In this document: in pieces, positions 185 to 62,690 of the stretch | Layout: each line of letters starts with the position of its first letter | Position numbering within the stretch: the first letter of the stretch is position 1 | Assembly: GCF_018320785.1 (NCBI RefSeq) | Contig: NC_054886.1 | Location: 36,230,520 to 36,294,519, forward strand | DNA: 64,000 bases | Origin: Cheilinus undulatus | Taxonomy: Eukaryota; Chordata; Actinopteri; Labriformes; Labridae | Direction of reading: 5' to 3' | Notes under the pieces: generated by a model | Seen by the model: the letters and a program-made list of their open reading frames with translations, nothing else | Databases searched by the model: none | Told to the model about the DNA's origin: nothing | Translations under genes and position numbers: made by a program

Positions 185-676
185 TCATTAAAAAGGATTT
201 TATTTCATCTGCAGAAAAGTCGATAAACAATAAAAAACGTTTTTATGGTAGATTTAACTTTAATCTGAAAGAATGAAAATAAAGAGACAAAACCAAAAAA
301 TACTATAAAGTTAGAGCCAGAACCACATCAAGAAAAGCCCCAGAACAGGACCCAGACTTAAGATCTTCAGTCATGTTAACCACGAGAGAGAGAGAGAGAC
401 CGGTCTGGAGACCAGTCCATCCAAGTTCACCAAACTTTACAAAAGTATTCATGGAAATAGACAATGTGGAGAAGTCCTCCTGCATTTTTAACCTATTTAA
501 ATCAAAAACTACCCAGGACTGGGACTTTGGGACTAATACTGGGACTCTAGGACTAGTACTGGGACTCTAGGGCTAGTACTGGGACTCCAGGACTAGTACT
601 GGGACTCTAGGGCTAGTACTGGGACTCTAGGACCAGTACTGGGACTCTAGGACCAGTACTGGGACTCATGGCGCTC
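185..676 (-). other. ift46: ift46 3' untranslated region with poly(A) signal
   Basis: This is the sequence following the ift46 stop codon on the minus strand. A canonical AATAAA hexamer reads on the minus strand at 199-204, about 475 nt past the stop, so the transcript probably ends near 180-190. The 3' UTR begins directly with a 20-bp tandem repeat (519-668). The end point is inferred from the hexamer only. Confidence 0.55.
519..668. repeat. 20-bp tandem repeat in the ift46 3' UTR
   Basis: Seven to eight copies of a 20-bp unit of the form gggactctaggactagtact, alternating ggactagt, ggctagt and ggaccagt variants. The array stops about 10 bp from the ift46 stop codon and would be transcribed into the mRNA 3' UTR. 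Confidence 0.9.
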
Positions 677-3600
677 TCATGCTCTCCGTGTGAAGTGCTG
701 CGAGTCTCTGAACTCCAGGTAAAGGCTGAAGAGCAGGTGCAGGCTCTGGATCCTGGATCCGTGGACGGGGATGTCGAGCAGGCTGCAGATGATGTCGGCG
801 TACTGGGCCGCGCTGCAGCTGAGGCGGGCCGGGGGCAGCTGCAGGCGGCCCAGCAGCTCCTCCAGCTCCGGCGGCCACTCCTGCATCAGGCTGTCGATGT
901 CCGGCATGGCCCGGCCGTACTGCACGCTGGCCGGAGGTTTGGAGTGGTGCAGGGCGCTGATGCTCTCCACCCAGCTGTCCACCACCCGAGGGTTGGACTG
1001 GGGGCTCGCCACGCTCGTCACCTTCTGCATCTGAGGGCGGGGAGAGAGGGGGGTCAGAGACAGTTTATACAGTCTATGAAGATATGTGCTGAGCTATCAG
1101 GTAGTAAACCTGAATGCTCTGTGACAGAATGAGGGAGAAAAGCTGTTAAAGAGGCTCCGCTAGCCTCTTAGCTAAAGGCTAACTCACCCTCATTCATCCT
1201 CAGCAGCAGTGGCTTCATTAAAACATGAGCTAGGAGGCTAGCCGTGCCTCTTTAACAGCTTTTCTCCCCCATGTTGAAACAGTAAATGAATAACTCCTAA
1301 ACTCAGGAGAAGAGGAGACCAGTGAGGCTGCAGGGATCAGCTAGCTAGCCCACACAGCCCAGACCTGAGTGTAAAGCAGTGTTACTCAACCCAAGAGCCA
1401 AACTGTTGAAAAATTAATTTACAAGAGCTACAATCTAAGTGGTGGACAGCGGCAAAAAGGGTTAAAGTGGCATTAAAAATGAGTTAAGGTGGTCAAAAAG
1501 CAGCAAACACTGGGAGAAAAGTGGCAAAAATGTGGAGGAAAAGTGGAAAAAAAGGGTGAGAAGTGGGACAAAATGAGTTACAGGTGGCAAAAAAGGTCCA
1601 AAAGTGGCAAACACGGGGGGGGAGAAGTGGCAAACACGGGGGGAAAAGTGGCAAAAATGTGGAGGAAAAGTGGAAAACACGGGTGAGAAGTGGGACAAAA
1701 TGAGTTACAGGTGGCAAAAAAGGTCCAAAAGTGGCAAACACGGGGGGGAAGAGTGGCAAACACGGGGGGAAAAGTGGCAAAAATGTGGAGAAAATGGGCA
1801 CAACAAGGGTGAGAAGTGGGACAAAATGAGTTACAGGTGGCAAAAAAGGTCCAAAAGTGGCAAACACGGGGGGGAAAAGTGGCAAACACGGGGGGAAAAG
1901 TGGCAAAAATGTGGAGGAAAAGTGGAAAAAAAGGGTGAGAAGGGGGACAAAATGAGTTACAGGTGGCAAAAAAGGTCCAAAAGTGGCAAACACGGGGGGG
2001 AAAGTGGCAAACACGGGGGGAAAAGTGGCAGAAATTGGAAGAAAATGTGGCAAAAACGGCAAAAAATGAGTGGAAGGTGAAGAAAAAGAAAATGTGCAAA
2101 AATTAGCAAAAAGGTGAGAAAATGGGAAATAGGTGGCACTTAATTGAAAAAGGTGGCTTACATGGGTGAAAAGTGGCAAAAAAAGGGGATTAAAGGGTAA
2201 AAAAAAAAGCATAAAAGCAGAGAAAAAGTGTCATAAACGTAAATAATGCTTTAAATCCCGACACACAGAGCCTCACGTGGGTCCAGAGCCACGCGTTGAC
2301 GATCACTTGTGTAAAGTGTAAACGAAGCATCAGGTGTGATATGGTGTAAAGGGTAAACCGGGTCAGAAGGATCAGGTGTGAGATGGTCTATAGTATAAAC
2401 CGGGTCAGAAGGATCAGGTGTGAGGTGGTGTAAAGTGTAAACCGGGTCAGAAGGATCAGGTGTGATATGGTGTAAAGGGTAAACCGGGTCAGAAGGATCA
2501 GGTGTGATATGGTCTAAAGGGTAAACCGGGTCAGAAGGATCAGGTGTGAGATGGTCTATAGTATAAACCGGGTCAGAAGGATCAGGTGTGATATGGTGTA
2601 AAGGGTAAACCAGGTCAGAAGGATCAGGTGTGAGATGGTCTATAGTATAAACCTGGTCAGAAGGATCAGGTGTGAGGTGGTGTAAAGTGTAAACCGGGTC
2701 AGAAGGATCAGGTGTGATATGGTGTAAAGGGTAAACCGGGTCAGAAGGATCAGGTGTGATATGGTGTAAAGGGTAAACCGGGTCAGAAGGATCAGGTGTG
2801 AGGTGGTGTAAAGTGTAAACCGGGTCAGAAGGATCAGGTGTGAGATGGTCTATAGTATAAACCGGGTCAGAAGGATCAGGTGTGAGGTGGTGTAAAGTGT
2901 AAACCGGGTCAGAAGGATCAGGTGTGAGATGGTCTAAAGTGTAAACCGGGTCAGAAGGATCAGGTGTGAGATGGTCTATAGTATAAACCGGGTCAGAAGG
3001 ATCAGGTGTGATATGGTCTATGGTATAAACCGGGTCAGAAGGATCAGGTGTGATATGGTCTAAAGTGTAAACCGGGTCAGAAAGATCAGGTGTGATATGG
3101 TCTAAAGTGTAAACCGGGTCAGAAAGATCAGGTGTGATATGGTCTAAAGTGTAAACCGGGTCAGAAAGATCAGGTGTGATATGGTCTAAAGTGTAAACCG
3201 GGTCAGAAAGATCAGGTGTGATATGGTCTAAAGTGTAAACCGGGTCAGAAGGATCAGGTGTGAGGTGGTCTAAAGTGTAAATCGGGTCAGAAAGATCAGG
3301 TGTGATATGGTCTAAAGTGTAAACCGGGTCAGAAGGATCAGGTGTGAAATGGTCTAAAGTGTAAACCGGGTCAGAAAGATCAGGTGTGATATGGTCTAAA
3401 GTGTAAACCGGGTCAGAAAGATCAGGTGTGATATGGTCTAAAGTGTAAACCGGGTCAGAAGGATCAGGTGTGAAATGGTCTAAAGTGTAAACCGGGTCAG
3501 AAAGATCAGGTGTGACATGGTTCAGTGAGGACTCCTACCTCTGGCGCTCCGTGCTGCTTGCTCTCCTCTGACAGCCACAGTGACAGCACCGTCGGCTCCG

Positions 3601-6600
3601 ACTGCTTCACGCTGGGCTCGTCCAGAACCAGCAGACCCAGGCTGTCCTCTTTACCGTCGGGCCGTGGAACCTGAACGCAAATCCAGTTAAAGCTGAGTTC
3701 AGGACTCATCTACCAGTCTCATTTCCTCTAGGAGTCAGACAGTAGCATCAGCCTCTGCTCAAACACGTCTACAGGTCTATTCTGAAGGTCTGACTGTGAG
3801 TCAGAACCATCAGCCTCAGCTCTGACAGACAGGAAGTGATGTTTTTTACCTTGAGGAAGGCGTCGATGTCTCCCACAGCGGGGATGAAGTCAGGGATGAA
3901 GGGCTTGAGGCTGTGCTCCAGCTCGATGTTCTGAGGGCTGTATCTGTAGGTGAGATCAGATTGATCCTGTCAGAGGTTAGAGTTCACCTGAGCACAGGTA
4001 GAATGGGACCCTGTCATCTGTGTTTCTAGTGCTGCATTCACTCTGAATACCAGGACAGGTAACTACGCTCTGAGGTGAAGAGGTGAGGAACACCTGGTCT
4101 GTCCGGACGTCCCGCTAAAGGAGGACTATCAGTCTAAAGCGCATGGGAAATAAAAGCATCACCTGACTGCACACGCTCAGTGCGTCCTCACCGTATGTTG
4201 TATTGACTGCACAAGCTCAGTGCGTCCTCACCGTATGATGTATTGACTGCACACGCTCAGTGCGTCCTCACCGTATGATGTATTGACTGCACACGCTCAG
4301 TGCGTCCTCACCGTATGATGTATTGACTGCACACGCTCAGTGCGTCCTCACCGTATGATGTATTGACTGCACACGCTCAGTGCGTCCTCACCGTATGATG
4401 TATTGACTGCACACGCTCAGTGCGTCCTCACCGTATGATGTACTGGAACAGCTCTTTGATGTCTGTGCTGACAGGCAGGTTGGCGTAGTCCGCCGCATCG
4501 TACGCCCCCTCTGGAGCGCCGCTGGGCTCGTCATCATCGTCGTCATCAGAGTCGTCCTCCTCTTCGTCAGAGTCTTCGTCTTCCTCCTCCTCTTCTTCGT
4601 GTGGACTGGCCCCGGACGGCCCCCTGCCGGCCTCGCCGGCCCTCTGAGCCTCGTCCTCCAGCTGGTCGATGCCGCTGTTGGCTGACATTCGGCCACGCCC
4701 CCTCCTGCTTCTCCTGGACAACGACTGAAAGATAGAGCAATGGTTAGGCTGCCTCCCATCATCAGCGTCTGTAAAAAAGAGAGCGACCACGGACGTTTCT
4801 GCTGATGTCGGCGGTTTACAATAAATAAGTCAGATAAAGAGTCTGTTCTCAGGACAAGACCAGGGGAAGACCTGATAGAATCAGAGTCAGGGAGGACCGG
4901 GTCTGGTACCTGTCTGTGTCTCACCTGTCCTCTCTCACCTGTCCTTTCTCACCTGTCTGTGTCTCACCTGTCCACTCTCACCTGTCCTCTCTCACCTGTC
5001 CTCTCTCACCTGTCCTCTCTCACCTGTCTGTGTCTCACCTGTCTGTGTCTCACCTGTCCTCTCTCACCTGTCTGTGTCTCACCTGTCCTTTCTCACCTGT
5101 CTGTGTCTCACCTGTCCTTTCTCACCTGTCTGTGTCTCACCTGTCCTCTCTCACCTGTCTGTGTCTCACCTGTCCTCTCTCATCTGTCTGTGTCTCACCT
5201 GTCCTCACTCACCTGTCTTTGTCTCACCTGTCTGTGTCTCACCTGTCCTTTCTCACCTGTCCTCTCTCACATGTCCTCTCTCACCTGTCTGTGTCTCACC
5301 TGTCCTCACTCACCTGTCTTTGTCTCACCTGTCTGTGTCTCACCTGTCCTCTCTCACCTGTCCTCACTCACCTGTCCTCTCTCACCTGTCCTCTCTCACC
5401 TGTCTGTGTCTCTCCTGTCTTTGTCGCACCTGTCTGTGTCTCACCTGTCCTTTCTCACCTGTCCTCTCTCACCTGTCTGTGTCTCTCCTGTCCTTTCTCA
5501 CCTGTCCTCTCTCACCTGTCTGTGTCTCACCTGTCTGTGTCTCACCTGTCCTTTCTCACCTGTCTGTGTCTCACCTGTCCTTTCTCACCTGTCTGTGTCT
5601 CACCTGTCTGTGTCTCACCTGTCCTCTCTCAACTGTCCTTTCTCACCTGTCTGTGTCTCACCTGTCCTCTCTCAACTGTCCTTTCTCACCTGTCTGTGTC
5701 TCACCTGTCCTCTCTCACCTGTCTGTGTCTCACCTGTCCTCACTCACCTGTCTGTGTCTCACCTGTCTGTGTCTCACCTGTCCTTTCTCACCTGTCTGTG
5801 TCTCACATGTCTGTGTCTCACCTGTCCTTTCTCACCTGTCCTCTCTCACCTGTCCTCTCTCACCTGTCCTTTCTCACCTGTCCTCACTCACCTGTCTTTG
5901 TCTCACCTGTCTGTGTCTCACCTGTCCTTTCTCACCTGTCCTCACTCACCTGTCCTCTCTCACCTGTCCTCTCTCACCTGTCTGTGTCTCTCCTGTTTTT
6001 GTCGCACCTGTCTGTGTCTCACCTGTCTGTGTCTCACCTGTCCTTTCTCACCTGTCCTCTCTCACCTGTCTGTGTCTCTCCTGTCTTTGTCTCACCTGTC
6101 TGTGTCTCACCTGTCCTTTCTCACCTGTCCTCTCTCATCTGTCCTCTCTCACCTGTCCTCTCTCACCTGTCTGTGTCTCTCCTGTCTTTGTCTCACCTGT
6201 CCTTTCTCACCTGTCCTCTCTCACCTGTCTGTGTCTCACCTGTCCTTTCTCACCTGTCCTCTCTCACCTGTCTGTGTCTCTCCTGTCTTTGTCTCACCTG
6301 TCTGTGTCTCACCTGTCCTTTCTCACCTGTCCTCTCTCACCTGTCTGTGTCTCACCTGTCTGTGTCTCACCTGTCCTCACTCACCTGTCTTTGTCTCACC
6401 TGTCTGTGTCTCACCTGTCCTCACTCACCTGTCTTTGTCTCACCTGTCTGTGTCTCACCTGTCCTCTCTCACCTGTCTTTGTCTCACCTGTCTGTGTCTC
6501 ACCTGTCCTCTCTCACCTGTCTTTGTCTCACCTGTCTGTGTCTCACCTGTCCTTTCTCACCTGTCCTCTCTCACCTGTCTGTGTCTCTCCTGTCTTTGTC

Positions 6601-7746
6601 TCACCTGTCTGTATCTCACCTGTCCTTTCTCACCTGTCCTCTCTCACCTGTCTGTGTCTCTCCTGTCTTTGTCTCACCTGTCTTTGTCTCACCTGTCCTT
6701 TCTCACCTGTCTGTGTCTCACCTGTCTTTGTCTCACCTGTCCTTTCTCACCTGTCCTCTCTCACCTGTCTGTGTCTCACCTGTCCTTTCTCACCTGTCCT
6801 CTCTCACCTGTCTGTGTCTCTCCTGTCTTTGTCTCACCTGTCTGTGTCTCACCTGTCCTTTCTCACCTGTCCTCTCTCACCTGTCCTCTCTCACCTGTCT
6901 GTGTCTCTCCTGTCTTTGTCTCACCTGTCTGTGTCTCACCTGTCCTTTCTCACCTGTCCTTTCTCACCTGTCCTCTCTCACCTGTCTGTGTCTCTCCTGT
7001 CTTTGTCTCACCTGTCTGTGTCTCACCTGTCCTTTCTCACCTGTCCTCTCTCACCTGTCTGTGTCTCTCCTGTCTTTGTCTCACCTGTCTGTGTCTCACC
7101 TGTCCTTTCTCACCTGTCCTTTCTCACCTGTCCTCTCTCACCTGTCCTCTCTCACCTGTCTTTGTCTCACCTGTCTGTGTCTCACCTGTCCTTTCTCACC
7201 TGTCCTTTCTCACCTGTCCTCTCTCACCTGTCCTCTCTCACCTGTCTTTGTCTCACCTGTCTGTGTCTCACCTGTCCTTTCTCACCTGTCCTCTCTCACC
7301 TGTCCTCTCTCACCTGTCTTTGTCTCACCTGTCTGTGTCTCACCTGTCCTCTCTCACCTGTCCTCTCTCACCTGTCTTTGTCTCACCTGTCTGTGTCTCA
7401 CCTGTCCTCTCTCACCTGTCTTTGTCTCACCTGTCTGTGTCTCACCTGTCCTTTCTCACCTGTCCTCTCTAACCTGTCCTCTCTCACCTGTCTTTGTCTC
7501 ACCTGTCTGTGTCTCACCTGTCCTTTCTCACCTGTCCTCTCTCACCTGTCTTTGTCTCACCTGTCTGTGTCTCACCTGTCCTTTCTCACCTGTCCTCTCT
7601 CACCTGTCCTCTCTCACCTGTCTGTGGCTGCCTGGTTCCGGGCTATAGACACTCGTCACCTCCTCGGGGTCGTTGACCTCCACCTCCTCGTCGTAGGGCT
7701 GGTTCTTCAGTAGGTTTGTGGTTTTACCTCGGTCACTCCGCTCCAT
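677..7746 (-). CDS. ift46: IFT46, intraflagellar transport protein 46 (IFT-B complex), five coding exons
   Basis: IFT46 is a subunit of the IFT-B train that carries cargo such as outer dynein arms into cilia. Coding exons read on the minus strand: 7746-7618 (43 codons), 4724-4432, 3943-3850, 3670-3539 and 1030-677 including TGA. They total 999 nt, or 333 residues, plus stop. All introns are GT-AG and the phases join cleanly (0, 2, 0, 0). The N-terminus (MERSDRGKTTNLLKNQPYDE) resembles fish IFT46 as I recall it. Residues about 86-109 are almost entirely Asp/Glu, as in vertebrate orthologues. The conserved part then follows: EGAYDAADYANLPVS, IKELFQYI, LKPFIPDFIPAVGDIDAFLK, VPRPDGK, LGLLVLDEPSVKQS, TVLSLWLSEESKQH, MPDIDSLMQEW and SRIQSLHLLFSLY. 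Length is slightly above the human protein (about 304). The start ATG was chosen because it gives the fish-type N-terminus; an in-frame ATG 13 codons upstream is not supported. Introns 1, 2 and 4 are filled with tandem arrays. Confidence 0.97.
1384..2220. repeat. Transposon fragment with expanded ~126-bp tandem repeat (ift46 intron 4)
   Basis: The left edge (gtgttactcaaccc, then gagccaaactgttgaaaa) matches the element copies at 30369 and, inverted, at 32991-34020. The interior is low-complexity (gtggcaaaaatg, gtggcaaacacgg). It is amplified into about four copies of a 126-127 bp unit; the landmark gagttacaggtggcaaa starts at 1575, 1702, 1828 and 1954. Long reading frames on both strands here are by-products of the repeat. 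Confidence 0.8.
2305..3518. repeat. 42-bp minisatellite in ift46 intron 4
   Basis: About 28 copies of a 42-bp unit containing aaaccgggtcagaaggatca followed by ggtgtgatatggtctaaag. Variants (ggatca or agatca; gtctaaagtg, gtgtaaaggg or gtctatagta) are interspersed on the left. They become more uniform (agatca, gtctaaagtg) from about 3060 to 3500, which suggests recent local amplification toward exon 4. The array ends about 20 bp from the exon 4 donor. Confidence 0.93.
4161..4440. repeat. 40-bp tandem repeat, seven copies, spanning the exon 2 donor of ift46
   Basis: Exact 40-bp periodicity (units begin at 4161, 4201, 4241, 4281, 4321, 4361 and 4401). Each unit contains tgcgtcctcaccgtatgatg. On the minus strand this reads CATCATACG|GTGAGGACGCA, the last nine coding bases of exon 2 plus its 5' splice site. 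The rightmost copy is the genuine exon end (4432). Confidence 0.95.
4915..7620. repeat. 14/15-bp minisatellite filling ift46 intron 1
   Basis: About 185 units built from interspersed variants: cacctgtcctctct, cacctgtcctttct (14 bp), cacctgtctgtgtct and cacctgtctttgtct (15 bp), with rare cactcac and gtcgcac types. On the minus strand nearly every unit reads gacaggtgaga, a consensus 5' splice site. The array directly abuts the exon 1 donor at 7617. Three overlapping plus-strand frames stay open for about 2.6 kb, but only because the repeat lacks stop codons. Confidence 0.97.
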
Positions 7747-8170
7747 GGACCGATAACGGACTACCGAGAGGACGAGCTCACCCACCGGGCCGTTAAACTC
7801 CCGTTAGAAGAGTCCTAATACCGAATCAAACCCCGGTCTGATCACATTAACCGACAACCGTTTACTTTAGCTCAGACGGCTAACGTTAGCCTCTTAGCAT
7901 CAAACTGCTAACGACTACCGGAAACACCGGAGAGTTTAACAAATAAGACAGACAGAGAGATGATCGAGTCTAAAACACCTACAGAAACACCGAATATCTC
8001 TGAATGTTTTGATTCCGTTACATCCGGTTAACGTCGACCAGAGATGGACGCTAACAGCTAACAGCTAGTCGCTGCTTCTGTATCCTAGCAACGGGTAACT
8101 TCTTCCTCTGTGTTGGCGGACCGGAAACCAACATTTATAAGGGTGCATACCGCCATCTACTGGACCGGAA
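7747..8170 (-). promoter_or_regulatory. ift46: ift46 5' flank / promoter
   Basis: Non-repetitive DNA upstream of the ift46 start. It is relatively CpG-containing, with several ccgga (ETS-like) sites and no TATA box, as expected for a broadly expressed ciliary gene. It includes the X-box at 8080-8092. The transcription start cannot be placed from sequence alone. Confidence 0.55.
8080..8092. promoter_or_regulatory. RFX X-box motif
   Basis: GTATCCTAGCAAC: a GTNNCC half site, one spacer base, and a perfect RGCAAC half site. This is the imperfect palindrome bound by RFX factors at ciliary gene promoters. It lies about 335 bp upstream of the ift46 ATG, in the only non-repetitive flank. Confidence 0.6.
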
Positions 8171-8525
8171 GGTTAAACATAATTCATTTATGAAGCTTAA
8201 ATGAGTTTCAAACCTTTTCATCATTAATAAACCGCCATTATCTGCGAATAGAAATACAATCATAATTATTCCATTTTTAAATTAAATAAAAGAATATTAA
8301 AATACATGATTTAGTTAAATATTCTTAAATGGAAGAAGTGTGGACCATCCAGGACTCTTCCAGGAGCTGGTCGCCTAAAAGGACCTTAGAGAGACCAAGA
8401 ACCTGATGGTCCCTCTGACTGAGCTCCAGAGATCCTGGAGGAGATGGAGAACGTTCTAGAAGGAGAACCATCACTGCAGCCCTCGCTGGTCTGGACTTTA
8501 TGGAGGAGAGATGAAGACTCTAGAT

Positions 8526-10340: not shown

Positions 10341-13300
10341 TTTTTCTCTAAAGTCTAAGTTTAATCCAAGAATTCTGACTTTAATCTCAGAATTTTGACT
10401 TTAATCTCACAATTCTGACTTTGATCTCAGAATTCTGAATATAACCTCAGAAGTCTGACGTTAATCTAAAAATGTTGAATTTGATCTCAGAATTCTGACT
10501 TTAATCTCAAAATTCTGACTTTGATCTCAGAATTCTGACTTTAATCTCAAAATTCTGACTTTAATCTCAGAATTCTTACTTTAATCTCAAAATTCTGACT
10601 TTGATCTCAGAATTCTGACTTTAATCTCAGAATTTTGACTTTGATCCCAGAATTCTGACTTTAATCTCACAATACTGACTGTAATCTCAGAATTCTAACT
10701 TTAATCTCACAATACTGACTGTAATCTCAGAATTCTGACTTTAATCTCAGAATTCTGAATATAACCTCAGAAGTCTGATGTTAATCTAAAAATTTTGAAT
10801 TTGATCTCAGAATTCTGACTTTAATCTCAAAATTCTGACTTTAATCTCAGAATTCTTACTTTAATCTCAAAATTCTGACTTTGATCTCAGAATTCTTACT
10901 TTAATCTCATAATTTTGACTTTGATCCCAGAATTCTGACTTTAATCTCACAATACTGACTGTAATCTCAGAATTCTAACTTTAATCTCACAATACTGACT
11001 GTAATCTCAGAATTCTGACTTTAATCTCAGAATTCTGACTTTAATCTCACAATACTGACTGTAATCTCAGAATTCTGACTTTAATCTCACAATACTGACT
11101 TTGATCTCAGAATTCTGACTTTAATCTCAGAATTCTGACTTTAATCTCACAATACTGACTGTAATCTCAGAATTCTGACTTTAATCTCAGAATCCTGACT
11201 TTAATCTCACAATACTGACTTTGATCTCAGAATTCTGACTTTAATCTCACAATACTGACTGTAATCTCAGAATTCTGACTTTAATCTCAGGATTCTGACT
11301 TTAATCTCAGAATTTTGACTTTGATCCCAGAATTCTGACTTTAATCTCAGAATTCTGACTTTGATCTCAGAATTCTGACTTTAAGAATTTTGACTTTAAT
11401 CTAAGAATTTTGACTTTGATCTTAGAATTCTGACTTTAATCTAAAAGTTCTTACCTTAAACTAAGAATTCCGACTTTAATCTAAGAATTCTGACTTTGTC
11501 CTCAGAATTTTGACTTTGATCTCAGAATTCTGACTTTGATCTCAGAATTCTTACTTTAATCTCAGAATTCTGACTTTAAGAATTTTGACTTTAATCTTAG
11601 AATTCTGACTTTAATCTCAGAATTCTGACTTTAATCTCAGAATTCTGACTTTAAGAATTTTGACTTTAATCTTAGAATTCTGACTTTAATCTAAAAGTTC
11701 TTACCTTAATCTCAGGATTCTGACTTTAATCTAAGAATTTTGACTTTGATCTTTGAATTCTGACTTTAATCTAAAAGTTCTTACCTTAATCTCAGAATAC
11801 TGACTGTAATCTCAGAATTCTGACTTTAATCTCAGAATTCTGACTTTGATCTCAGAATTCTGACTTTAATCTCAGAATTCTGACTTTAAGAATTTTGACT
11901 TTAATCTTAGAATTCTGACTTTAATCTAAAAGTTCTTACCTTAATCTCAGGATTCTGACTTTAATCTAAGAATTTTGACTTTGATCTTTGAATTCTGACT
12001 TTAATCTAAAAGTTCTTACCTTAATCTAAGAATTCTTACTTTAATCTCAAAATTCTGACTTTGATCTCAGAATTCTTACTTTAATCTCATAATTTTGACT
12101 TTGATCCCAGAATTCTGACTTTAATCTCACAATACTGACTGTAATCTCAGAATTCTAACTTTAATCTCACAATACTGACTGTAATCTCAGAATTCTGACT
12201 TTAATCTCAGAATTCTGACTTTAATCTCACAATACTGACTGTAATCTCAGAATTCTGACTTTAATCTCACAATACTGACTTTGATCTCAGAATTCTGACT
12301 TTAATCTCAGAATTCTGACTTTAATCTCACAATACTGACTGTAATCTCAGAATTCTGACTTTAATCTCAGAATCCTGACTTTAATCTCACAATACTGACT
12401 TTGATCTCAGAATTCTGACTTTAATCTCACAATACTGACTGTAATCTCAGAATTCTGACTTTAATCTCAGGATTCTGACTTTAATCTCAGAATTTTGACT
12501 TTGATCCCAGAATTCTGACTTTAATCTCAGAATTCTGACTTTGATCTCAGAATTCTGACTTTAAGAATTTTGACTTTGATCAAAGAATTTTGACTTTGAT
12601 CTTAGAATTCTGACTTTAATCTAAAAGTTCTTACCTTAAACTAAGAATTCCGACTTTAATCTAAGAATTCTGACTTTGTCCTCAGAATTTTGACTTTGAT
12701 CTCAGAATTCTGACTTTGATCTCAGAATTCTTACTTTAATCTCAGAATTCTGACTTTAAGAATTTTGACTTTAATCTTAGAATTCTGACTTTAATCTCAG
12801 AATTCTGACTTTAATCTCAGAATTCTGACTTTAAGAATTTTGACTTTAATCTTAGAATTCTGACTTTAATCTAAAAGTTCTTACCTTAATCTCAGGATTC
12901 TGACTTTAATCTAAGAATTTTGACTTTGATCTTTGAATTCTGACTTTAATCTAAAAGTTCTTACCTTAATCTCAGAATACTGACTGTAATCTCAGAATTC
13001 TGACTTTGATCTCAGAATTCTGACTTTAATCTCAGAATTCTGACTTTAAGAATTTTGACTTTAATCTTAGAATTCTGACTTTAATCTAAAAGTTCTTACC
13101 TTAATCTCAGGATTCTGACTTTAATCTAAGAATTTTGACTTTGATCTTTGAATTCTGACTTTAATCTAAAAGTCACAATACTGACTGTAATCTCATAATT
13201 CTAACTTTAATCTCACAATACTGACTGTAATCTCAGAATTCTGACTTTAATCTCAGAATTCTGACTTTAATCTCACAATACTGACTGTAATCTCAGAATT

Positions 13301-16140
13301 CTGACTTTAATCTCACAATACTGACTATAATCTCAGAATTCTGACTTTAATCTCAGAATTCTGACTTTAATCTCACAATACTGACTTTGATCTCAGAATT
13401 CTGACTTTAATCTCACAATACTGACTGTAATCTCAGAATTCTGACTTTAATCTCAGGATTCTGACTTTAATCTCAGAATTTTGACTTTGATCCCAGAATT
13501 CTGACTTTAATCTCAGAATTCTGACTTTGATCTCAGAATTCTGACTTTAAGAATTTTGACTTTAATCTAAGAATTTTGACTTTGATCTTAGAATTCTGAC
13601 TTTAATCTAAAAGTTCTTACCTTAAACTAAGAATTCCGACTTTAATCTAAGAATTCTGACTTTGTCCTCAGAATTTTGACTTTGATCTCAGAATTCTGAC
13701 TTTGATCTCAGAATTCTGACTTTAATCTCAGAATTCTGACTTTAAGAATTTTGACTTTAATCTTAGAATTCTGACTTTAATCTCAGAATTCTGACTTTAA
13801 TCTGAGAATTCTGACTTTAAGAATTTTGACTTTAATCTTAGAATTCTGACTTTAATCTAAAAGTTCTTACCTTAATCTCAGGATTCTGACTTTAATCTAA
13901 GAATTTTGACTTTGATCTTTGAATTCTGACTTTAATCTAAAAGTTCTTACCTTAATCTCAGAATACTGACTGTAATCTCAGAATTCTGACTTTAATCTCA
14001 GAATTCTGACTTTGATCTCAGAATTCTGACTGTAATCTCAGAATTCTGACTTTAAGAATTTTGACTTTAATCTTAGAATTCTGACTTTAATCTAAAAGTT
14101 CTTACCTTAATCTCAGGATTCTGACTTTAATCTAAGAATTTTGACTTTGATCTTTGAATTCTGACTTTAATCTAAAAGTTCTTACCTTAATCTCAGAATA
14201 CTGACTGTAATCTCAGAATTCTGACTTTAATCTCAGAATTCTGACTTTGATCTCAGAATTCTGACTTTAATCTCAGAATTCTGACTTTAAGAATTTTGAC
14301 TTTAATCTTAGAATTCTGACTTTAATCTAAAAGTTCTTACCTTAATCTCAGAATTCTGACTTTAATCTAAGAATTTTGACTTTGATCTTTGAATTCTGAC
14401 TTTAATCTAAAAGTTCTTACCTTAATCTCAGGATTCTGACTTTAATCTAAGAATTTTGACTTTGTCCTCAGAATTTTGACTTTGATCTCAGAATTCTGAC
14501 TTTGATCTCAGAATTCCTACTTTAATCTCAGGATTCTGACTTTGATCTCAGAATTCTGACTTTGATCTCACAATACTGACTTTGATCTCAGAATTCTGAC
14601 TTTGATCTCAGAATTTTGACTTTGATCTCAGAATTTTGACTTTGATCTCAGAATTCTGACTTTGATCTCAGAATTCCTACTTTAATCTCAGGATTCTGAC
14701 TTTGATCTCAGAATTCTGACTTTGATCTCAGAATTTTGACTTTAATCTAAAAGTTCTTACCTCAATCTAAGAATTCGGACTTTTATCTCAGAATTCTGAC
14801 CTTAATCTCAGAATACTGACTTTGATCTCAGAATTCTGACTTTGATCTCAGAATTCTGACTTTGTCCTCAGAATTTTGACTTTGATCTCAGAATTCTGAC
14901 TTTGATCTCAGAATTCTTACTTTAATCTCAGGATTCTGACTTTGATCTCAGAGTTCTGACTTTGATCTCAGAATTCTGACTTTGATCTCAGAATTCTGAC
15001 TTTAATCTCAGGATTCTGACTTTGATCACAGAATTCTGACTTTGATCTCAGAATTTTGACTTTAATCTCAGAATTTTGACTTTGATCTCAGAATTCTTAC
15101 TTTGATCTCAGAATTCTGACTTTAATCTCAGAATTCTGACTTTGATCTCAGAATTCTGACTTTAATCTTAGAATTCTGACTTTAAGAATTTTTACTTTAA
15201 TCTAAGAATTTTGACTTTGATCTTAGAATTCTGACTTTAATCTAAAAGTTCTTACCTTAATCTAAGAATTCTGACTTTAATCTAAGAATTTTGACTTTGT
15301 CCTCAGAATTTTGACTTTGATCTCAGAATTCTGACTTTGATTTCAGAATTCTTACTTTAATCTCAGGATTCTGACTTTGATCTCAGAATTCTGACTTTGA
15401 TCTCAGAATTTTGACTTTGACCTCAGAATTCTGACTTAAGCTCAGAATTCTGACTTTGATCTCAGAATTCTGACTTTGATCTCAGAATTCTGACTTTAAT
15501 CTAAAAGTTCTTACCTTAATCCAACAATTCTGACTTTAATCTAAGAATTTTGACTTTGTTCCCAGAATTTTGACTTTGATCTCAGAATTCTGACTTTGAT
15601 CTCAGAATTCTGACTTTAATCTCAGGATTCTGACTTTGATCTCAGAATTCTGACTTTGATCTCAGAATTTTGACTTTGATCTCAGAATTCTGACCTTAAT
15701 CTCAGAATACTGACTTTAATCTCAGAATTCTGACTTTAATCTCAGAATTTTGACTTTGATCTCAGAATTCTGACTTTGATCTCAGAATTCTGACTTTAAT
15801 CTCAGAATTCTGACTTTGATCTCAGAATTCTGACTTTGATCTCAGAATTCTGACTTTAAGAATTTTGACTTTGATCTCAGAATTCTGAATTTAATCTAAG
15901 AATTCCGAATTTAATCTCAGAATTTTGACTTTATGAATTCAGAATTTAATCTAAGAATATGACTTTACCTAAGAATTCTGACTTTAATCTCAGAATTTTG
16001 ACTTTAATCTCAGGATTTTGACTTTAACCTCAGAATTTTGACTTTAATCTCAGAATTTTCACTTTAATCTAAGAATTCTGACTTTAATCTCAGAATTTTG
16101 ACTTTAATCTCATTAATCTCAGGTTCTGAATTTTTACCCC
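10341..16140. repeat. 5.8 kb array of a 20-bp unit (EcoRI-site-rich satellite)
   Basis: About 285 copies of a 20-bp unit, agaattctgactttaatctc, with variants such as actttgatctc, aatactgactgtaatctc, aaaagttcttacctt and the shortened actttaagaatttt. GAATTC occurs in a large share of the units. Variant strings recur as blocks: the rare string cttaaactaagaattccgac occurs near 11461, 12641 and 13627, so higher-order duplication of about 1.18 kb and 0.99 kb is present. The edges (after about 15870) are more degenerate. Confidence 0.97.
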
Positions 16141-20899: not shown

Positions 20900-23010
20900 A
20901 AAAGTATATACAAAATCCAGTTTTTAATAATGATTTCATCTATTAAGGGAAAAAGCCATTCAAACAGATCTGGCACTAGATTTACATGTGCTACAAAATC
21001 ATTTCTAAGGCTTCTGGACTAAAGGGAATCATGGTGAGAGCCATTATCCACAAATGAAGAAAACTTGGACAAATGAAGAGCTCAAAAAGCGGCATGGCAT
21101 GGAAACATCTAAGGAAATTCAAGAACAGATGAGAAGCAAAGTCACTGACATCTATCACTGACATGACACTGAGAGCCATTACCCACAAATGGAGAAAAAC
21201 TGGGAACAGTGGTGAACCTTCCCAGGAGTAGCTGGCCTACCAACATGACTCAAAGAGAACATGGACGACTCATCCAGGAGGTCCCAGAAGAACCAGAACC
21301 ACATCTAAAGATCAACAAAGGAAAGGATGGAATGTTTTATAAGCTGTGATGACATCATTCTAAAAGGCAGGATGGAATGTTTTATATGCTGTGATGACAT
21401 CATACTGAAAGGAAAGGATGGAATGAGTTATAAGCTGTGATGAAATTGTTCTAAAAGGAAAGGATGAAATGTTTTGTAAGCTGTGATGACATCATACTGA
21501 AAGGCAAGGATGGAATGTTTTATAAGCTGTGATGAAGTCATTCTATAATGAAATGATGAAATGTTTTATAAGCTGTGATGAATCATACTGAAAGGCAAGG
21601 ATGAAATGTTTTATAAGCTGTGATGAAGTCATTCTAAAAAGAAAGGATGAAATGTTTTATAAGCTGTGATGAAGTCATTCTAAAAAGAAAGGATGAAATG
21701 TTTTATAAGCTGTGATGACATCATTCTAAAAGGAAAGGATGGAATGTTTTATGAGCTATGATGACATCATTCCAAAAGGAAAGGATGGAATGTTTTATGA
21801 GCTGTGATGACATCATTCCAAAAGGAAAGGATGGAATGTTTTATGAGCTGTGATGACATCATTCTAAAAAGAAAGGATGAAATGTTTCATAAGTTGTGAT
21901 GACATCATTCTAAAAGGAAATGATGGATTTTTAAAAAAAGTTTTGAAGACAACAGCTTGAAAGGCAAGGATGGAATGTTTTTCTAAGATTTAATACCATA
22001 AAAGAAGGAATGTCTACAAGCTTTGATGACATCCTCTTCAAAGACAAAGATGGATTTTTTTATAAACTTTGATGACATCATCTTCAAAGAAAAAAATGGA
22101 ATGTTTACAACATTTAAAACCATTTTTATAGGCAAGAATAGAATGTTTTGTAAGCTTTGATGACATCATCTTCAAAGTCAGACATGGAATGTTTTTCTAA
22201 GATTTGATACCATAAAAGATTGAATGTTTACAAGTTTTGATGATACCATCTTCAAAGGGAAAGATGGGATGTTTTATAAGCTGTGATCCATTCCATCCTC
22301 TGCCTATGAAAGGAAGAGTATGGAACTTTGGTGAGGCGGGGGATGTTGGGGCATTTTCCCTCCTTTTTCCTATCAGCCATGGTTGAAGAAAGTTGGGTGG
22401 AACTGGAGCGGAGAGAGAGAAACCCTCGCTCCTAAAAGTTGCCAACAAAGGGCAGTGAACATGAGAAAGAACGTTCTAGAAGGTGTGTGTCCCGCTCCCC
22501 TTTGTAAAACTAACCCAGCATTTCATCAGAAGAACATCAGACCAACAGTCAGACATGGTGGTGGTAGTGTGATGGTCTGGACCAGGACCTGGACCACTAG
22601 AACCATGAATTCTGCTCTCTACCAGAAAATCCTGAAGGAGAATGTCTGACCATCAGTTCACAACCTCATTTCAAGCACACTCGGGTTATGGAGTAGGACC
22701 ATGATCCCAAACACACCAGCAAGTCCACCTCTGAATGGACTGAAGACTAAAAGAAGGTTCTGGAGTGGTCTAGTCAGAGTCTGGACTTAGATCTGACTGA
22801 GATGCTGTGGCGTGACCTTAGACAGGCCGTTCATGCTGGAAAGGTTTGGATGGATTTAGCCTTAATAAATGAAATCATCATTTAAACTCTGACGTTAGTG
22901 TTGACTCAGGTTATCTCTGTCTGATATGAACACTAGTCTGATGATCTGAAACATTTTAATGTGACAAATATAAAAAATAAGAATTCAGGAAGGAGGAAAA
23001 TACGTGCCGA
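20900..23010 (+). mobile_element. Tc1/mariner-like transposon relic, interrupted by a satellite
   Basis: The left piece (about 21000-21310) contains degraded N-terminal transposase sequence, with residues resembling the AIIHKW and PRSGRP-type DNA-binding region. The right piece (about 22510-22860) keeps FHQKNIRPTVRHGGGSVMVW and MNSALYQKILKENV. Beyond that are broken remnants of the SPDLxPIEMLW region, the usual Tc1 catalytic C-terminal block. The 3' end (about 22870-23010) resembles Tc1 3' flanks. Frameshifts and stops make it inactive. A 46-bp satellite (21317-22290) sits between the halves. The relic ends about 90 bp before the peptide hormone ATG. Confidence 0.75.
21317..22290. repeat. 46-bp minisatellite inside the Tc1 relic
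   Basis: About 21 copies of a unit of roughly 46 bp containing ggatggaatgttttataagc, then tgtgatgacatcattctaaa. It is homogeneous at 21320-21920 and degraded to the right, where cttcaaag-containing variants appear (22020-22260). Those right-hand variants are intermediate with the 47-bp array at 26148-27802. Confidence 0.92.
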
Positions 23011-23098
23011 TCACATGACAGGATATTTGGATGCTGAGGTTTTCTGTTTAATCTGGTTTAATCTAAATTTTTGTCTTCTGTTTTACCTCAAAACAAAG

Positions 23099-23805
23099 AT
23101 GGCGTCTTCTTCTTCTTCTTCCTCCCCCGCTGCTGTCCTCACTCTCCTCTTTCTCCTCTTCCTCACCATCGCTGAGACGAGGCCTTCACCTCAGAGAGAC
23201 GACACACAGGTCTGAGAACATCTTCATCATCATCACCTTCATAGTATCATTTATAACCCATATTCCAAAAAAGTTGGGACGCTGTGTAAAATGTAAATAA
23301 AACCAGAAGTCAGTGATTGCCTCATAAACCCATTGTTTTTGTTTACATCTTACACGGTGTCCCAACTTTTTAGGAAATGGAGTTGTAGATATAATCAGTG
23401 AGCTCTTTTAAAAACAGAAAACCAGTGTAACTGTTCCTTTAAACAGCCATAACATCACTAGACTTTGTAAAAACAACCATTTTGTCTCCTCAGGTTCTTC
23501 ACTCTCTGTTTGGTTCTCACCTGTCCTCCCTCATCATGGCCACTCCCACCTCTGATGACATCACAGAGGGCTCAGCCGGACCACCCGCCCCCTCCGTTTC
23601 CTCTCCCTTCAGAGGATTGGCCGTGAGTCGGGATGCTGTGAGGGGATTGGCTGGCAGGCAGGAGGCGGTCCCTCAGTTCTTCCTAGACTTCCTGCAGCGG
23701 CAGTCGAAGATGAGGAGGCGGAGCAGGAAGTCGATGATGGGAGGAAGAGGATGCTTCGGGATGAAGATGGACCGCATCGGCTCCATCAGCGGGCTGGGCT
23801 GTTAG
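23099..23805 (+). CDS. nppc: C-type natriuretic peptide precursor (CNP family), two coding exons
   Basis: The gene encodes a secreted peptide hormone precursor; CNP signals through the guanylyl cyclase receptor NPR-B. Exon 1 is 23099-23209 (37 codons) and exon 2 is 23494-23805 (103 codons plus stop), joined in phase 0 across a GT-AG intron, giving 140 residues. A serine-rich start followed by LTLLFLLFLTIA forms a signal peptide, with cleavage likely near residue 25. A basic cluster RRRSRK (residues 111-116) is a furin-type processing region. The C-terminus is the 17-residue disulfide ring CFGMKMDRIGSISGLGC (C124-C140). It ends exactly at the second Cys with no tail, which separates CNP from ANP, BNP and VNP. 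Two Met replace the Leu residues of the common ring (CFGLKLDRIG). Teleosts have several CNP paralogues and I cannot decide which this is. The short intron contains a MITE. Confidence 0.94.
23253..23388. mobile_element. MITE in the natriuretic peptide intron
   Basis: The left end (attccaaaaaagttgggac, then gctgtgtaaaatgtaaa) and the reverse complement of the right end (atttcctaaaaagttgggac, then accgtgtaagatgtaaa) are long, nearly identical inverted repeats. The element is about 135 bp and makes up almost half of the 284-bp intron. Similar short elements are common in fish genomes. Confidence 0.85.
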
Positions 23806-26147: not shown

Positions 26148-27802
26148 AAAGACAGCGGATAGAATGTTTTATAAACTTTGATGCATCATCGTCAAAGACA
26201 GAAAATAGAATGTTTTATAACCTTTGATGGCATCATCTTCAAAGACAGAGAATAGAATGTTTTATAAACTTTGATGGCATCATCTTCAAAGACAGAGAAT
26301 AGAATGTTTTATAAACTTTGATGGCATCATCTTCAAAGACAGAGAATAGAATGTCTTATAACCTTTGATGGCATCATCCTCAAAGGCAGAGAATAGAATG
26401 TTTTATAACCTTTGATGGCATCATCCTCAAAGGCAGAGAATAGAATGTTTTATAAACTTTGATGGCATCATCTTCAAAGACAGAGAACAGAATGTCTAAT
26501 AACCTTTGATGGCATCATCCTCAAAGGCAGAGAATAGAATGTTTTATAAACTTTGATGGCATCATCCTCAAAGGCAGAGAATAGAATGTTTTATAAACTT
26601 TGATGGCATCATCTTCAAAGAAAGAAAATAGAATGTTTTATAAACTTTGATGGCATCATCTTCAAAGACAGAGAATAGAATGTTTTATAAACTTTGATGG
26701 CATCATATTCAAAGACAGAGAATAGAATGTTTTATAACCTTTGATGGCATCATCTTCAAAGACAGAGAATAGAATGTTTTATAAACTTTGATGGCATCAT
26801 CTTCAAAGACAGAGAACAGAATGTTTTATAACCTTTGATGGCATCATCTTCAAAGACAGAGAATAGAATGTTTTATAAACTTTGATGGCATCATCTTCAA
26901 AGACAGAGAATAGAATGTTTTATAAACTTTGATGGCATCATCTTCAAAGAAAGAAAATAGAATGTTTTATAACCTTTGATGGCATCATCTTCAAAGAAAG
27001 AGAACAGAATTTTTTATAAACTTTGATGGCATCATCTTCAAAGACAGAGAATAGAATGTTTTATAACCTTTGATGGCATCATCTTCAAAGACAGAGAATA
27101 GAATGTTTTATAACCTTTGATGGCATCATCTTCAAAGAAAGAGAACAGAATTTTTTATAACCTTTGATGGCATCATCTTCAAAGAAAGAGAACAGAATTT
27201 TTTATATCTTGATGGCATCATCTTCAAAGACAGAGAATAGAATGTTTTATAACCTTTGATGGCATCATCTTCAAAGAAAGAGAACAGAATTTTTTATAAC
27301 CTTTGATGGCATCATCTTCAAAGAAAGAGAACAGAATTTTTTATAACCTTTGATGGCATCATCTTCAAAGACAGAGAATAGAATGTTTTATAACCTTTGA
27401 TGGCATCATCTTCAAAGAAAGAGAACAGAATGTTTTTATAACCTTTGATGGCATCATCTTCAAAGACAGAGAATAGAATGTTTTATAACCTTTGATGGCA
27501 TCATCTTCAAAGAAAGAGAACAGAATGTTTTTATAACCTTTGATGGCATCATCTTCAAAGACAGAGAATAGAATGTTTTATAACCTTTGATGGCATCATC
27601 TTCAAAGACAGAGAATAGAATGTTTTATAACCTTTGATGGCATCATCTTCAAAGACAAAGAATAGAATGTTTTATATCTTTTGATGGCATCATCTTCAAA
27701 GACAAAGAATAGAATGTTTTATATCTTTTGATGGCATCATCCTCAAAGTCAAAGAACAGAATGTTTTATTAACTTTGATGGCATCATCTTCAAAAGCAGA
27801 CA
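26148..27802. repeat. 47-bp minisatellite
   Basis: About 35 copies of a unit containing agaatagaatgttttataaa, then ctttgatggcatcatcttca. Two main variants (ataaacttt and ataaccttt) alternate, and a sub-variant agagaacagaattttttat clusters at 27000-27350. Each unit contains the palindrome TGATGGCATCA and inverted CTTTGA / TCAAAG arms. It shares its core with the arrays at 21317 and 42920. Confidence 0.95.
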
Positions 27803-42919: not shown

Positions 42920-45900
42920 TTTAAAGGCAGGGATGTTTGTTAAACTTTAAAGAATGAGATAACCTTCAAAGGTAGGGACGGAATGTTTGATAAACTTTAA
43001 AGGATGAGATAACCTTCAAAGGCAGGGACGGAATGTTTGATAAACTTTAAAGGATGAGATAACCTTCAAAGGCAGGGACGGAATGTTTGATAAACTTTAA
43101 AATATGAAAAAAAATTCAAAGGTAGGGACGGAATGTTTGATAAACTTTAAAGGATGAGATAACCTTCAAAGGCAGGGACGGAATGTTTGATAAACTTTAA
43201 AGGATGAGATAACCTTCAAAGGCAAAGACAGAATGTTGATAAACTTTAAAGGATGAGATAACCTTCAAAGGCAGGGATGAAATGTTTGATAAACATGAAA
43301 ATATGACAAAAACTTCAAAGGTAGGGACGGAATGTTTGATAAACTTTAAAGGATGAGATAACCTTCAAAGGCAGGGACGGAATGTTTGATAAACTTTAAA
43401 GGATGAGATAACCTTCAAAGGCAAAGACAGAATGTTGATAAACTTTAAAGGATGAGATAACCTTCAAAGGCAGGGACGGGATGTTTGATAAACTTGAAAA
43501 TATGACAAAAACTTCAAAGGCAGGGATAGAATGTTTGATGAATTTTAAAGGATGAGATAACCTGCAAAGGCAGTGATGGAATGTTTGATAAACTTTAAAG
43601 GATGAGATAACCTTCAAAGGCAGGGAGGGAATGTTTGATAAACTTTAAAGGATGAGATAACCTTCAAAGGCAGGGACGGAATGTTTGATAAACTTTAAAG
43701 GATGAGATAACCTTCAAAGGCAGGGAGGGAATGTTTGATAATTTTTAAAGGATGAGATAACCTTCAAAAGCAGGGACGGAATGTTTGATAAACTTTAAAA
43801 TATGACAAAACCCTCAAAGGCAGGGACGGAATGTTTGATAAACTTTAACGGATAAGGTTAACCTTCAAAGGCAGGGACGGAATGTTTGATAAACTTTAAA
43901 GGATGAGATAACCTTCAAAGGCAGGGAGGGAATGTTTGATAAACTTTAAAATATGACAAAAACTTCAAAGGTAGGGACGGAATGTTTGATAAACTTTAAA
44001 GGATGAGATAACCTTCAAAGGCAGGGAGGGAATGTTTGATAAACTTTAAAGGATGAAATAACCTTCAAAGGCAAAGACAGAATGTTGATAAACTTTAAAG
44101 GATGAGATAACCTTCAAAGGCAGGGATGAAATGTTTGATGAACTTTAAAGGATGAGATAACCTTCAAAGGCAGGGACGGAATGTTTGATAAACTTTAAAG
44201 GATGAGATAACCTTCAAAGGTAGGGACGGAGTTTTTGATGAACTTTAAAGGATGAGATAACCTTCAAAGGTAGGGACGGAGTTTTTGATGAACTTTAAAG
44301 GATGAGATAACCTTCAAAGGCAGGGACGGAATTTTTGATGAACTTTAAAGGATGAAATAACCTTCAAAGGCAAAGACAGAATGTTGATAAACTTTAAAGG
44401 ATGAGATAACCTTCAAAGTCAGGGATAGAATGTTTGATAAACTTTAAAGGATGAGAAAACCTGCAAAGGCAGGGATGGAATGTTTGATAAACTTTAAAGG
44501 ATGAGATAACCTGCAAAGGCAGGGACGGAATGTTTGATAAACTTTGAAGGATGAGATAACCTTCAAAGGCAGGGAGGGAATGTTTGATAAACTTTAAAGG
44601 ATGAGATAACCTTCAAAGGCAGGGACGGAATGTTTGATAATTTTTAAAGGATGAGATAACCTTCAAAAGCAGGGACGGAATGTTAAATAAACTTTAAAAT
44701 ATGACAAAACCCTCAAAGGCAGGGACGGAATGTTTGATAAACTTTAACGGATAAGGTTAACCTTCAAAGGTTGGGACGGGATGTTTGATAAACTTGAAAA
44801 TATGACAAAAACTTCAAAGGCAGGGATAGAATGTTTGATGAATTTTAAAGGATGAGATAACCTGCAAAGGCAGGGATGGAATGTTTGATAAACTTTAAAG
44901 GATGAGATAACCTTCAAAGGCAGGGAGGGAATGTTTGATAAACTTTAAAGGATGAGATAACCTTCAAAGGCAGGGACGGAATGTTTGATAAACTTTAAAA
45001 TATGACAAAACCCTCAAAGGCAGGGACGGAATGTTTGATAAACTTTAACGGATAAGGTTAACCTTCAAAGGCAGGGACGGAATGTTTGATAAACTTTAAA
45101 GGATGAGATAACCTTCAAAGGCAGGGACGGAATGTTTGATAAACTTTAAAATATGACAAAAACTTCAAAGGCAGGGACGGAATGTTTGATAAACTTTAAA
45201 GGATGAGATAACCTTCAAAGGCAAAGACAGAATGTTGATAAACTTTAAAGGATGAGATAACCTTCAAAGGCAGGGATGAAATGTTTGATAAACTTTAAAG
45301 GATGAGATAACCCTCAAAGGCAGGGATGAAATGTTTGATAAACTTTAAAGGATGAGATAACCTTCAAAGGCAGGGACGGAATGTTTGATAAACTTTAAAG
45401 GATGAGATAACCCTCAAAAGCAGGGAGGGAATGTTTGATAAACTTTAAAAGATGAGATAACCTTCAAAGGTAGGAACGGAATTTTTGATGAACTTTAAAG
45501 GATGAGATAACCTTCAAAGGCAGGGACGGAATGTTTGATAAACTTTAAAGGATGAGATAACCTTCAAAGGCAGGAACGGAATTTTTGATGAACTTTAAAG
45601 GATGAGATAACCTTCAAAGTCAGGGATAGAATGTTTGATAAACTTTAAAGGATGAGATAACCTGCAAAGGCAGGGATGGAATGTTTGATAAACTTTAAAG
45701 GATGAGATAACCTGCAAAGGCAGGGACGGAATGTTTGATAAACTTTGAAGGATGAGATAACCTTCAAAGGCAGGGAGGGAATGTTTGATAAACTTTAAAG
45801 GATGAGATAACCTTCAAAGGCAGGGACGGAATGTTTGATAATTTTTAAAGGATGAGATAACCTTCAAAAGCAGGGACGGAATGTTTAATAAACTTTAAAA

Positions 45901-60900: not shown

Positions 60901-62690
60901 CCTTCAAAAGCAGGGACGGAATGTTTGATAAACTTTAAAATATGACAAAACCCTCAAAGGCAGGGACGGAATGTTTTATAATTTTTAAAGGATGAGATAA
61001 CCTTCAAAAGCAGGGACGGAATGTTTGATAAACTTTAAAATATGACAAAACCCTCAAAGGCAGGGACGGAATGTTTGATAAACTTTAAAGGATGAGATAA
61101 CCTTCAAAGGCAGGGCGGAATGTTTGATAAACTTTAAAGGATGAGATAACCTTGAAAGGTAGGGACGGAGTTTTTGATGAACTTTAAAGGATGAGATAAC
61201 CTTCAAAGGCAGGAACGGAATTTTTGATGAACTTTAAAGGATGAGATAACCTTCAAAGGCAGGGACGGAATTTTTGATGAACTTTAAAGGATGAGATAAC
61301 CTTCAAAGGCAGGGATAGAATGTTTGATAAACTTTAAAGGATGAGAAAACCTGCAAAGGCAGGGACGGAATGTTTGATAAACTTTAAAGGATGAGATAAC
61401 CTTCAAAGGCAGGGAGGGAATGTTTGATAAACTTTAAAGGATGAGATAACCTTCAAAGGCAGGGATGAAATGTTTGATAAACTTTAAAGGATGAGATAAC
61501 CTTCAAAAGCAGGGACGGAATTTTTGATAAACTTTAAAATTTGACAAAACCCTCAAAGGCAGGGACGGAATGTTTGATAAACTTTAACGGATAAGGTTAA
61601 CCTTCAAAGGCAGGGATGGAATGTTTGATAAACTTGAAAATATGACAAAAACTTCAAAGGCAGGGATAGAATGTTTGATGAATTTTAAAGGATGAGATAA
61701 CCTGCAAAGGCAGGGATGGAATGTTTGATAAACTTTAAAGGATGAGATAACCTTCAAAGGCAGGGAGGGAATGTTTGATAAACTTTAAAGGATGAGATAA
61801 CCTTCAAAGGCAGGGATGGAATGTTTGATAAACTTTAACAGATAAGGTTAACCTTCAAAGGTTGGGACGGGATGTTTGATAAACTTGAAAATATGACAAA
61901 AACTTCAAAGGCAGGGCGGAATGTTTGATAAACTTTAAAGGATGAGATAACCTGCAAAGGCAGGGATGGAATGTTTGATGAACTTTAAAGGATGAGATAA
62001 CCTTCAAAGGCAGGGACGGAATGTTTGATAAACTTTAAAGGATGAGATAACCTCCAAAGGCAGGGACGGAATGTTTGATAAACTTTAAAGGATGAGATAA
62101 CCTTCAACGGCAAATTAGAATGTTTGATAAACTTTAAAGGATGAGATAACCTCCAAAGGCAGGGACGGAATGTTTGATAAAGTTTAAAGGATGAGATAAC
62201 CTTCAAAGGCAGTGATGGAATGTTTGATAAACTTTAAAGGATGAGATAACCTTCAACGGCAAATTAGAATGTTTGATAAAGTTTAAAGGATGAGATAACC
62301 TGCAAAGGCAGGGATGGAATGTTTGATAAACTTTAAAGGATGAGATAACCTTCAAAGGCAGTGATGGAATGTTTGATAAACTTTAAAGGATGAGATAACC
62401 TTCAACGGCAAATTAGAATGTTTGATAAAGTTTAAAGGATGAGATAACCTGCAAAGGCAGGGATGGAATGTTTGATAAACTTTAAAGGATGAGATAACCT
62501 TCAAAGGCAGTGATGGAATGTTTGATAAACTATAATGAATTCAATTAGCTTTCAAGGCAGAGTCAGAATGTTTGATTTTAAGGGACAATATCGTCTTCAA
62601 TAGCAAGTAAGCAATTTTTTATAACCTTTAAAGGATTTCATATTTTAAGACAAGGCTGGAATGTTTTATAGACTTCAAAATGATATTGAA
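42920..62690. repeat. 19.8 kb array of a 50-bp unit
   Basis: Close to 390 copies of a 50-bp unit containing caaaggcagggacggaatgt, ttgataaactttaaaggatg and agataacctt. Recurrent variant monomers include aaaatatgacaaaaccctca, taacggataaggttaacc, gtaggaacggaatttttgatg, the 48-bp agggcggaatg and the 49-bp caaagacagaatgttgataa. Variant monomers recur in fixed order, so multi-monomer blocks have been copied as units. Units decay at the right edge (62530-62690) and mildly at the left. Long minus-strand frames inside (e.g. 43396-43617, 61985-62206) are repeat artefacts. Confidence 0.98.

Follow-up and report, generated by a model that had tools for sequence, protein, structure and literature searches.

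A minisatellite anchored on the first splice donor of Cheilinus undulatus ift46 resembles an accidental repeat expansion

Arrays of tandem repeats that begin at a splice donor are already known from human ABCA7, where, according to the excerpted text of the report (PMC5954066), the first bases of the intron-18 VNTR are the donor GT of exon 18 and the number of units ranges from ~12 to 427. The same excerpts give frameshifting isoforms at 14% and 2% 'respectively', which, following the order of the paper's wording, we read as use of a cryptic acceptor (14%) and retention of one unit (~2%). Retention of one unit is described there as independent of array length and skipping of exon 19 as dependent on it, and blocking mRNA decay substantially raised stop-containing transcripts, the ~2% being a post-decay figure. 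Among human genes in segmental duplications, internal tandem repeats have also been surveyed at exon-intron boundaries (PMC2812944, in excerpt), and PMC5133863 (in excerpt) describes saGHFIM, a minisatellite that is polymorphic and lies in the first intron of seabream growth hormone. Excerpts on a seabream myostatin-2 intron, the C. elegans minisatellite CeRep25B, Nothobranchius repeats, and U1 and polyadenylation serve here as background only. Among the matches listed from the open-licence PMC literature there was no report of the array described below, and a text search for the letters of its unit turned up no paper.

The array lies in ift46, a minus-strand gene within the window, the 64,000-nucleotide stretch of Cheilinus undulatus contig NC_054886.1 that was analysed (Table 1). 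The identity of the gene, proposed in an initial annotation of this DNA, was confirmed by a match to Pfam PF12317 (IFT46_B_C) over residues 117-327 (4.1e-92). Five coding exons join into an open 333-residue protein that matches a solved IFT46 chain at 2e-69. NQPYDEEV of exon 1 aligns with NQPHDEEV of that chain, at 5.8 bits and an i-Evalue of 60, which alone is not significant. Intron 1 is 2893 nt long, of which 2710 nt are array and 183 nt are not. The CpG observed/expected ratio is ~1 at 7600-8399. An X-box-like GTTGCTAGGATAC lies ahead of the start codon at 8092 (minus strand); it is matched by a loose pattern only, and a stricter RFX consensus had no match. At the other end of the gene, a 20-bp array (518-667, minus strand) lies in the 3' UTR, starting ~10 nt past the stop codon.

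Table 1. Coordinates of ift46 and its donor-proximal arrays within the window
Feature	Position	Strand	Detail	Basis
First coding exon, ATG to donor	7618..7746	-	43 codons, phase 0	
Genuine donor GT of intron 1	7616..7617	-	CAG|GTGAGA; sole frame-preserving donor	assigned from the frame
Donor-anchored minisatellite	4908-7626	-	187 units of 14/15 bp, 166 with CAG|GTGAG	TRF and unit parsing
Remainder of intron 1	4725..4907	-	183 nt, acceptor TTTCAG	
Exon 2	4432..4724	-		
Remainder of coding region, with introns 2-4	677..4431	-		
Second donor-anchored array	4164..4442	-	40-bp unit, seven copies, spanning the end of exon 2 (TACATCATACG) and intron 2 start	
Exon 3	3943-3850	-		
Exon 4	3670-3539	-		
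42-bp array	2324..3521	-	28.5 copies, starts 17 nt into intron 4	TRF
Exon 5	1030-677	-		

TRF reports the intron 1 array with a period of 14 and 187.5 copies at 4908-7622, and again with a period of 58 at 4908-7626, and parsing its minus strand gives 97 units of 14 bp, 89 units of 15 bp and a final 22-bp piece that contains a partial unit. The initial annotation had counted about 185 consensus donors. The array is indeed present, but the consensus core CAGGTGAG occurs in 166 of the 187 units, GT stands at the donor position in 171, and the remaining 16 have lost it, 12 of these sharing the 9-mer CAGGAGAGA. The donor 9-mer is CAGGTGAGA in 158 units and CAGGTGAGT in 8, and one more GT (CAG|GTACC), in the partial unit farthest from exon 1, falls outside the count of 171. 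An ideal donor has T at +6, so that CAG|GTGAGA is one base short. Six unit types account for 174 of the 187 units. These are head-to-tail units of a length within the 6-99 bp of minisatellites, and since the array contains what the frame identifies as the genuine donor, and its units repeat that donor, it is probably a donor-anchored intronic VNTR.

The window holds 170 copies of CAGGTGAG where 100 shuffles lead one to expect 2.19 (sd 1.42). This excess is a single event, however often it is counted, because the repeat copies one unit. What counts above chance is therefore not the number of motifs but the anchoring of the array to exon 1. The last 9 nt of the exon, CACAGACAG (7618-7626), are in phase with the 14/15-bp array and identical to the 15-bp unit, and CACAGACAGGT occurs at both ends of the array, with one copy inside exon 1. 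Two further claims of the initial annotation thus held: the array is continuous with the end of exon 1, and the genuine donor looks like a first unit, its 9-mer being that of 158 units.

The closest precedent is ABCA7, in which, judging from the excerpts, the first GT of the minisatellite is likewise the donor of the upstream exon, the donor is repeated in each unit and the frame is lost when splicing uses the second one. The human array differs in having a 25-bp unit, a C-rich region and an internal intron, whereas the ift46 unit is 14/15 bp, purine-rich and mostly donor, sits in the first coding intron, and is followed in intron 2 by another array anchored on a donor. The ift46 array is of a kind already known, and ABCA7 offers an experimental parallel both for mostly using the first donor and for a possible effect of array length on splicing. 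The human boundary repeats (PMC2812944, in excerpt) share minisatellite expansion at exon-intron junctions with an altered gene structure, but have units of mean length 30 bp, about four of them, and create new introns or are retained in exons. Likeness to saGHFIM extends, in the text seen of PMC5133863, to a fish intron 1 and a 13-17 bp unit, TGACCTGTCTSTCTCTC, in which ACCTGTCT is shared with one strand of the ift46 array; reporter assays are described there as showing a negative regulatory structure, and that text makes no mention of donor anchoring.

The reading that we favour, with a probability of about 0.72, is that this is an intronic minisatellite born by junction duplication in which the donor copies are passengers. 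A tandem duplication spanning the exon 1/intron 1 junction of ift46 would have started the array, slippage or unequal exchange would have enlarged it, and the donor copies would have ridden along as part of the repeat unit, close to neutrally. The first donor would be the one that matters because only the first donor gives protein; it would probably be favoured as the cap-proximal, exon-adjacent site, and mRNA spliced at later donors, being frameshifted or stopped, would be degraded. In short, the array looks like an accidental repeat expansion and not like a purpose-built splicing platform.

Another way to regard the array is as a natural competition assay, in which one pre-mRNA presents 158 donors of identical 9-mer, the real one included. 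For these 158 units U1 pairing is predicted at -11.1 kcal/mol and for 8 others at -11.9 kcal/mol, compared with -8.8, -6.8 and -9.3 kcal/mol at the three remaining donors (introns 2, 3 and 4), and so the ladder of equivalent U1 sites that the initial annotation had proposed does exist on paper. Because the RNA of the array is 80% purine and a folded 351-nt piece (7300-7650) had no extra structure over shuffles (z 0.79), the copies should, on these predictions, be open and equal rivals of the real site. A structured RNA was considered and dropped: the window, searched at gathering thresholds, had no match in Rfam, and the 351 nt gave the z just cited. The consequences for the protein are uneven: the native frame is kept by the first donor, 1 of the 171 with GT, and the other 170 lack the native C-terminus. 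Use of the second array donor gives a predicted 197-residue frameshifted product, and for the next four donors listed after it a stop follows five added codons. Read-through past the true donor reaches a stop after five codons, just as the initial annotation said, but the alternative donors it envisaged would yield no functional isoform, as 170 of 171 break the frame, and for the same reason we discarded redundant donors as a safeguard.

Proximity to exon and cap would favour the first of these donors, whereas in studies of duplicated donors the intron-proximal site is often preferred at high U1 occupancy, which would predict splicing from the last units. Eperon 1993 and Hodson 2012, both among the references of PMC8724738, are reportedly part of the work on duplicated donors. 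Among all 171 GT donors only one gives protein, so that RNA reads at ift46 would reveal how strictly exon-proximal choice holds against identical rivals. A functional alternative is that the array is an accidental donor-anchored VNTR that nevertheless alters ift46 splicing or output in a length-dependent manner, with intron 1 acting as a sink for U1 and SR proteins. Predicted U1 pairing is better at the array sites than at the other ift46 donors and the sites should be open (80% purine; z 0.79 for 351 nt), exon-19 skipping in ABCA7 increases with VNTR length while the one-unit isoform, which speaks against such an effect, stays constant across array lengths (PMC5954066, in excerpt), and seabream growth hormone intron 1, which bears a minisatellite, represses reporters (PMC4848999 and PMC5133863, both in excerpt). 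On balance we consider a length effect of this kind unlikely, though not far-fetched.

The initial annotation also suggested that the array might be a landing platform for U1. As a selected feature, such a platform would protect the transcript from premature polyadenylation or boost transcription, and the 171 GT donors, 166 of them with CAGGTGAG, have some parallel in the large introns of Drosophila, where donor-like motifs co-occur with AATAAA (PMC4889658, in excerpt). Scanning for AATAAA and ATTAAA from 8100 (weaker variants not counted), however, found only those at 264 and 204, both in the 3' UTR, so there is no such signal in the gene ahead of its 3' UTR for the array to suppress; the proposed protection from premature polyadenylation is not supported by this finding, and neither is U1 telescripting. 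The donor motif itself gave no sign of being maintained: 9 of 12 rare substitutions fall inside the donor 9-mer and 3 outside, where the 9-mer makes up 1683 of 2715 bases (p 0.55, with low power for twelve events), and units without GT have multiplied. In this comparison the six common unit types were taken as parents, differences among the types and the last piece were left out, and a single event may have been copied into several of the 12 substitutions; selection in an array can also be masked by homogenisation. Thus, there is no detectable constraint on the donor motif, by tests that are individually weak, and we regard a selected U1 platform as very unlikely.

The same 9-mer bears on a possible role at the level of DNA. 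CAGGTG is an E-box bound by Snail, ZEB and E-protein factors, and intron 1 could be viewed as a cluster of it: the array has 168 copies of CAGGTG, and the remaining 61,285 bases have 53 when both strands are counted. The motif lies within the donor motif, however, and so any array built on this donor brings it along, while the 9-mer that encloses it is without visible constraint; we find an E-box element extremely improbable. Most units also read ACAG|GTGAG, and this juxtaposition of AG and GT raises the idea of a ladder of recursive (zero-exon) splice sites. Recursive sites have a pyrimidine tract ahead of AG|GT, and in the 20 nt upstream the pyrimidine fraction averages 0.17 over all units and does not exceed 0.30 beyond the first one, but is 0.60-0.95 at the four real ift46 acceptors. 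With AG|GT sites that lack pyrimidine tracts, recursive splicing was rejected, its likelihood being close to nil.

Returning to an array born by junction duplication, the distribution of variants gives some indication of how it grew. Of the 12 rare variants, ten lie in the half farther from exon 1 (mean position, one-sided permutation P 0.024), which fits more recent turnover at the exon 1 end. Block periodicity is stronger in the exon-proximal half: unit identity there reaches 0.45 at lag 17, the top of 24 lags, whereas the distal half has 0.18 and shuffles, scored at lag 4, have 0.19. Successive quartiles away from exon 1 contain 2, 5, 6 and 3 units without GT, with no simple gradient.

A comparable array lies in intron 2. 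It repeats the exon-2 donor ACG|GTGAGG, and use of donor copies 2-7 would end the predicted protein at residue 141. With 98% matches by TRF at 4164-4442, it is probably recent. Its copies include the codons for YIIR, and these lie in a stretch (ELFQYIIRY of exon 2) that aligns with ELFSYIGRY of the solved IFT46 chain; we infer from this alignment that the array derives from the exon, whose conserved codons have been copied into the intron. The real donor as seed is thus much clearer for the intron 2 array than for intron 1, where it is plausible but the reverse direction, from array to exon, may also hold. Together, the two arrays show how exon ends can enter introns as copies, and suggest a genome-wide test: do minisatellites start at donors?

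Within ift46 itself, three of the four intronic arrays start at or within 17 nt of a donor (Table 1), and the fourth starts 1482 nt from one. The distances from array end to the acceptor of the same intron are 183, 220, 1293 and 472 nt, so that none of the four touches an acceptor. Under random seeding, at least two of four arrays overlapping a donor has P 0.05, and at least three of four starting no more than 17 nt from a donor has P 0.011, but these tests are post hoc and concern four arrays only. A preference of ift46 arrays for donors is therefore only suggestive. A bolder proposal, which we consider doubtful, is that minisatellites in this fish arise preferentially at splice donors and that PRDM9-less recombination near promoters may drive their growth; the fish would, presumably, lack a functional PRDM9. 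A duplication across a donor would be tolerated because the first copy still functions, and one across an acceptor would not. The significance of this proposal, if true, is that ift46 would display the birth of minisatellites at three donors simultaneously, and that introns would lengthen from their 5' ends through the copying of exon ends.

Repeats are abundant in the remainder of the window. Fourteen TRF arrays, smaller TRF rows being left out, sum to 37,604 of the 64,000 bases (59%), and one array of 19.6 kb with a 50-bp unit spans 42933-62535. MAGGTRAG was absent from 12 of the 13 other arrays checked in the window; a 5.7-kb array of 20-bp units outside ift46 (10360-16112, minus strand) has 18 on the minus strand. 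Scans with the unit pattern found 9 stretches in IMG/VR, with one match each, and 23 stretches in prokaryotes, 21 of them with one match, one with two and one with four. A natriuretic peptide gene lies at 22937-23802 (plus strand), its frame at 23443-23802 matching Pfam ANP (8.2e-15) and ending in CFGMKMDRIGSISGLGC; presumably it is of the CNP type. The upstream frame at 22937-23212 resembles a signal peptide and had no family match, and TRF lists no array between the two frames. On either side of this gene, the arrays at 21317-21981 and 26148-27794, with units of 46 and 47 bp, have in common a GAATGTTTTATAA...TGATG.CATCAT-like core (TRF consensus, compared by eye) and may be related.
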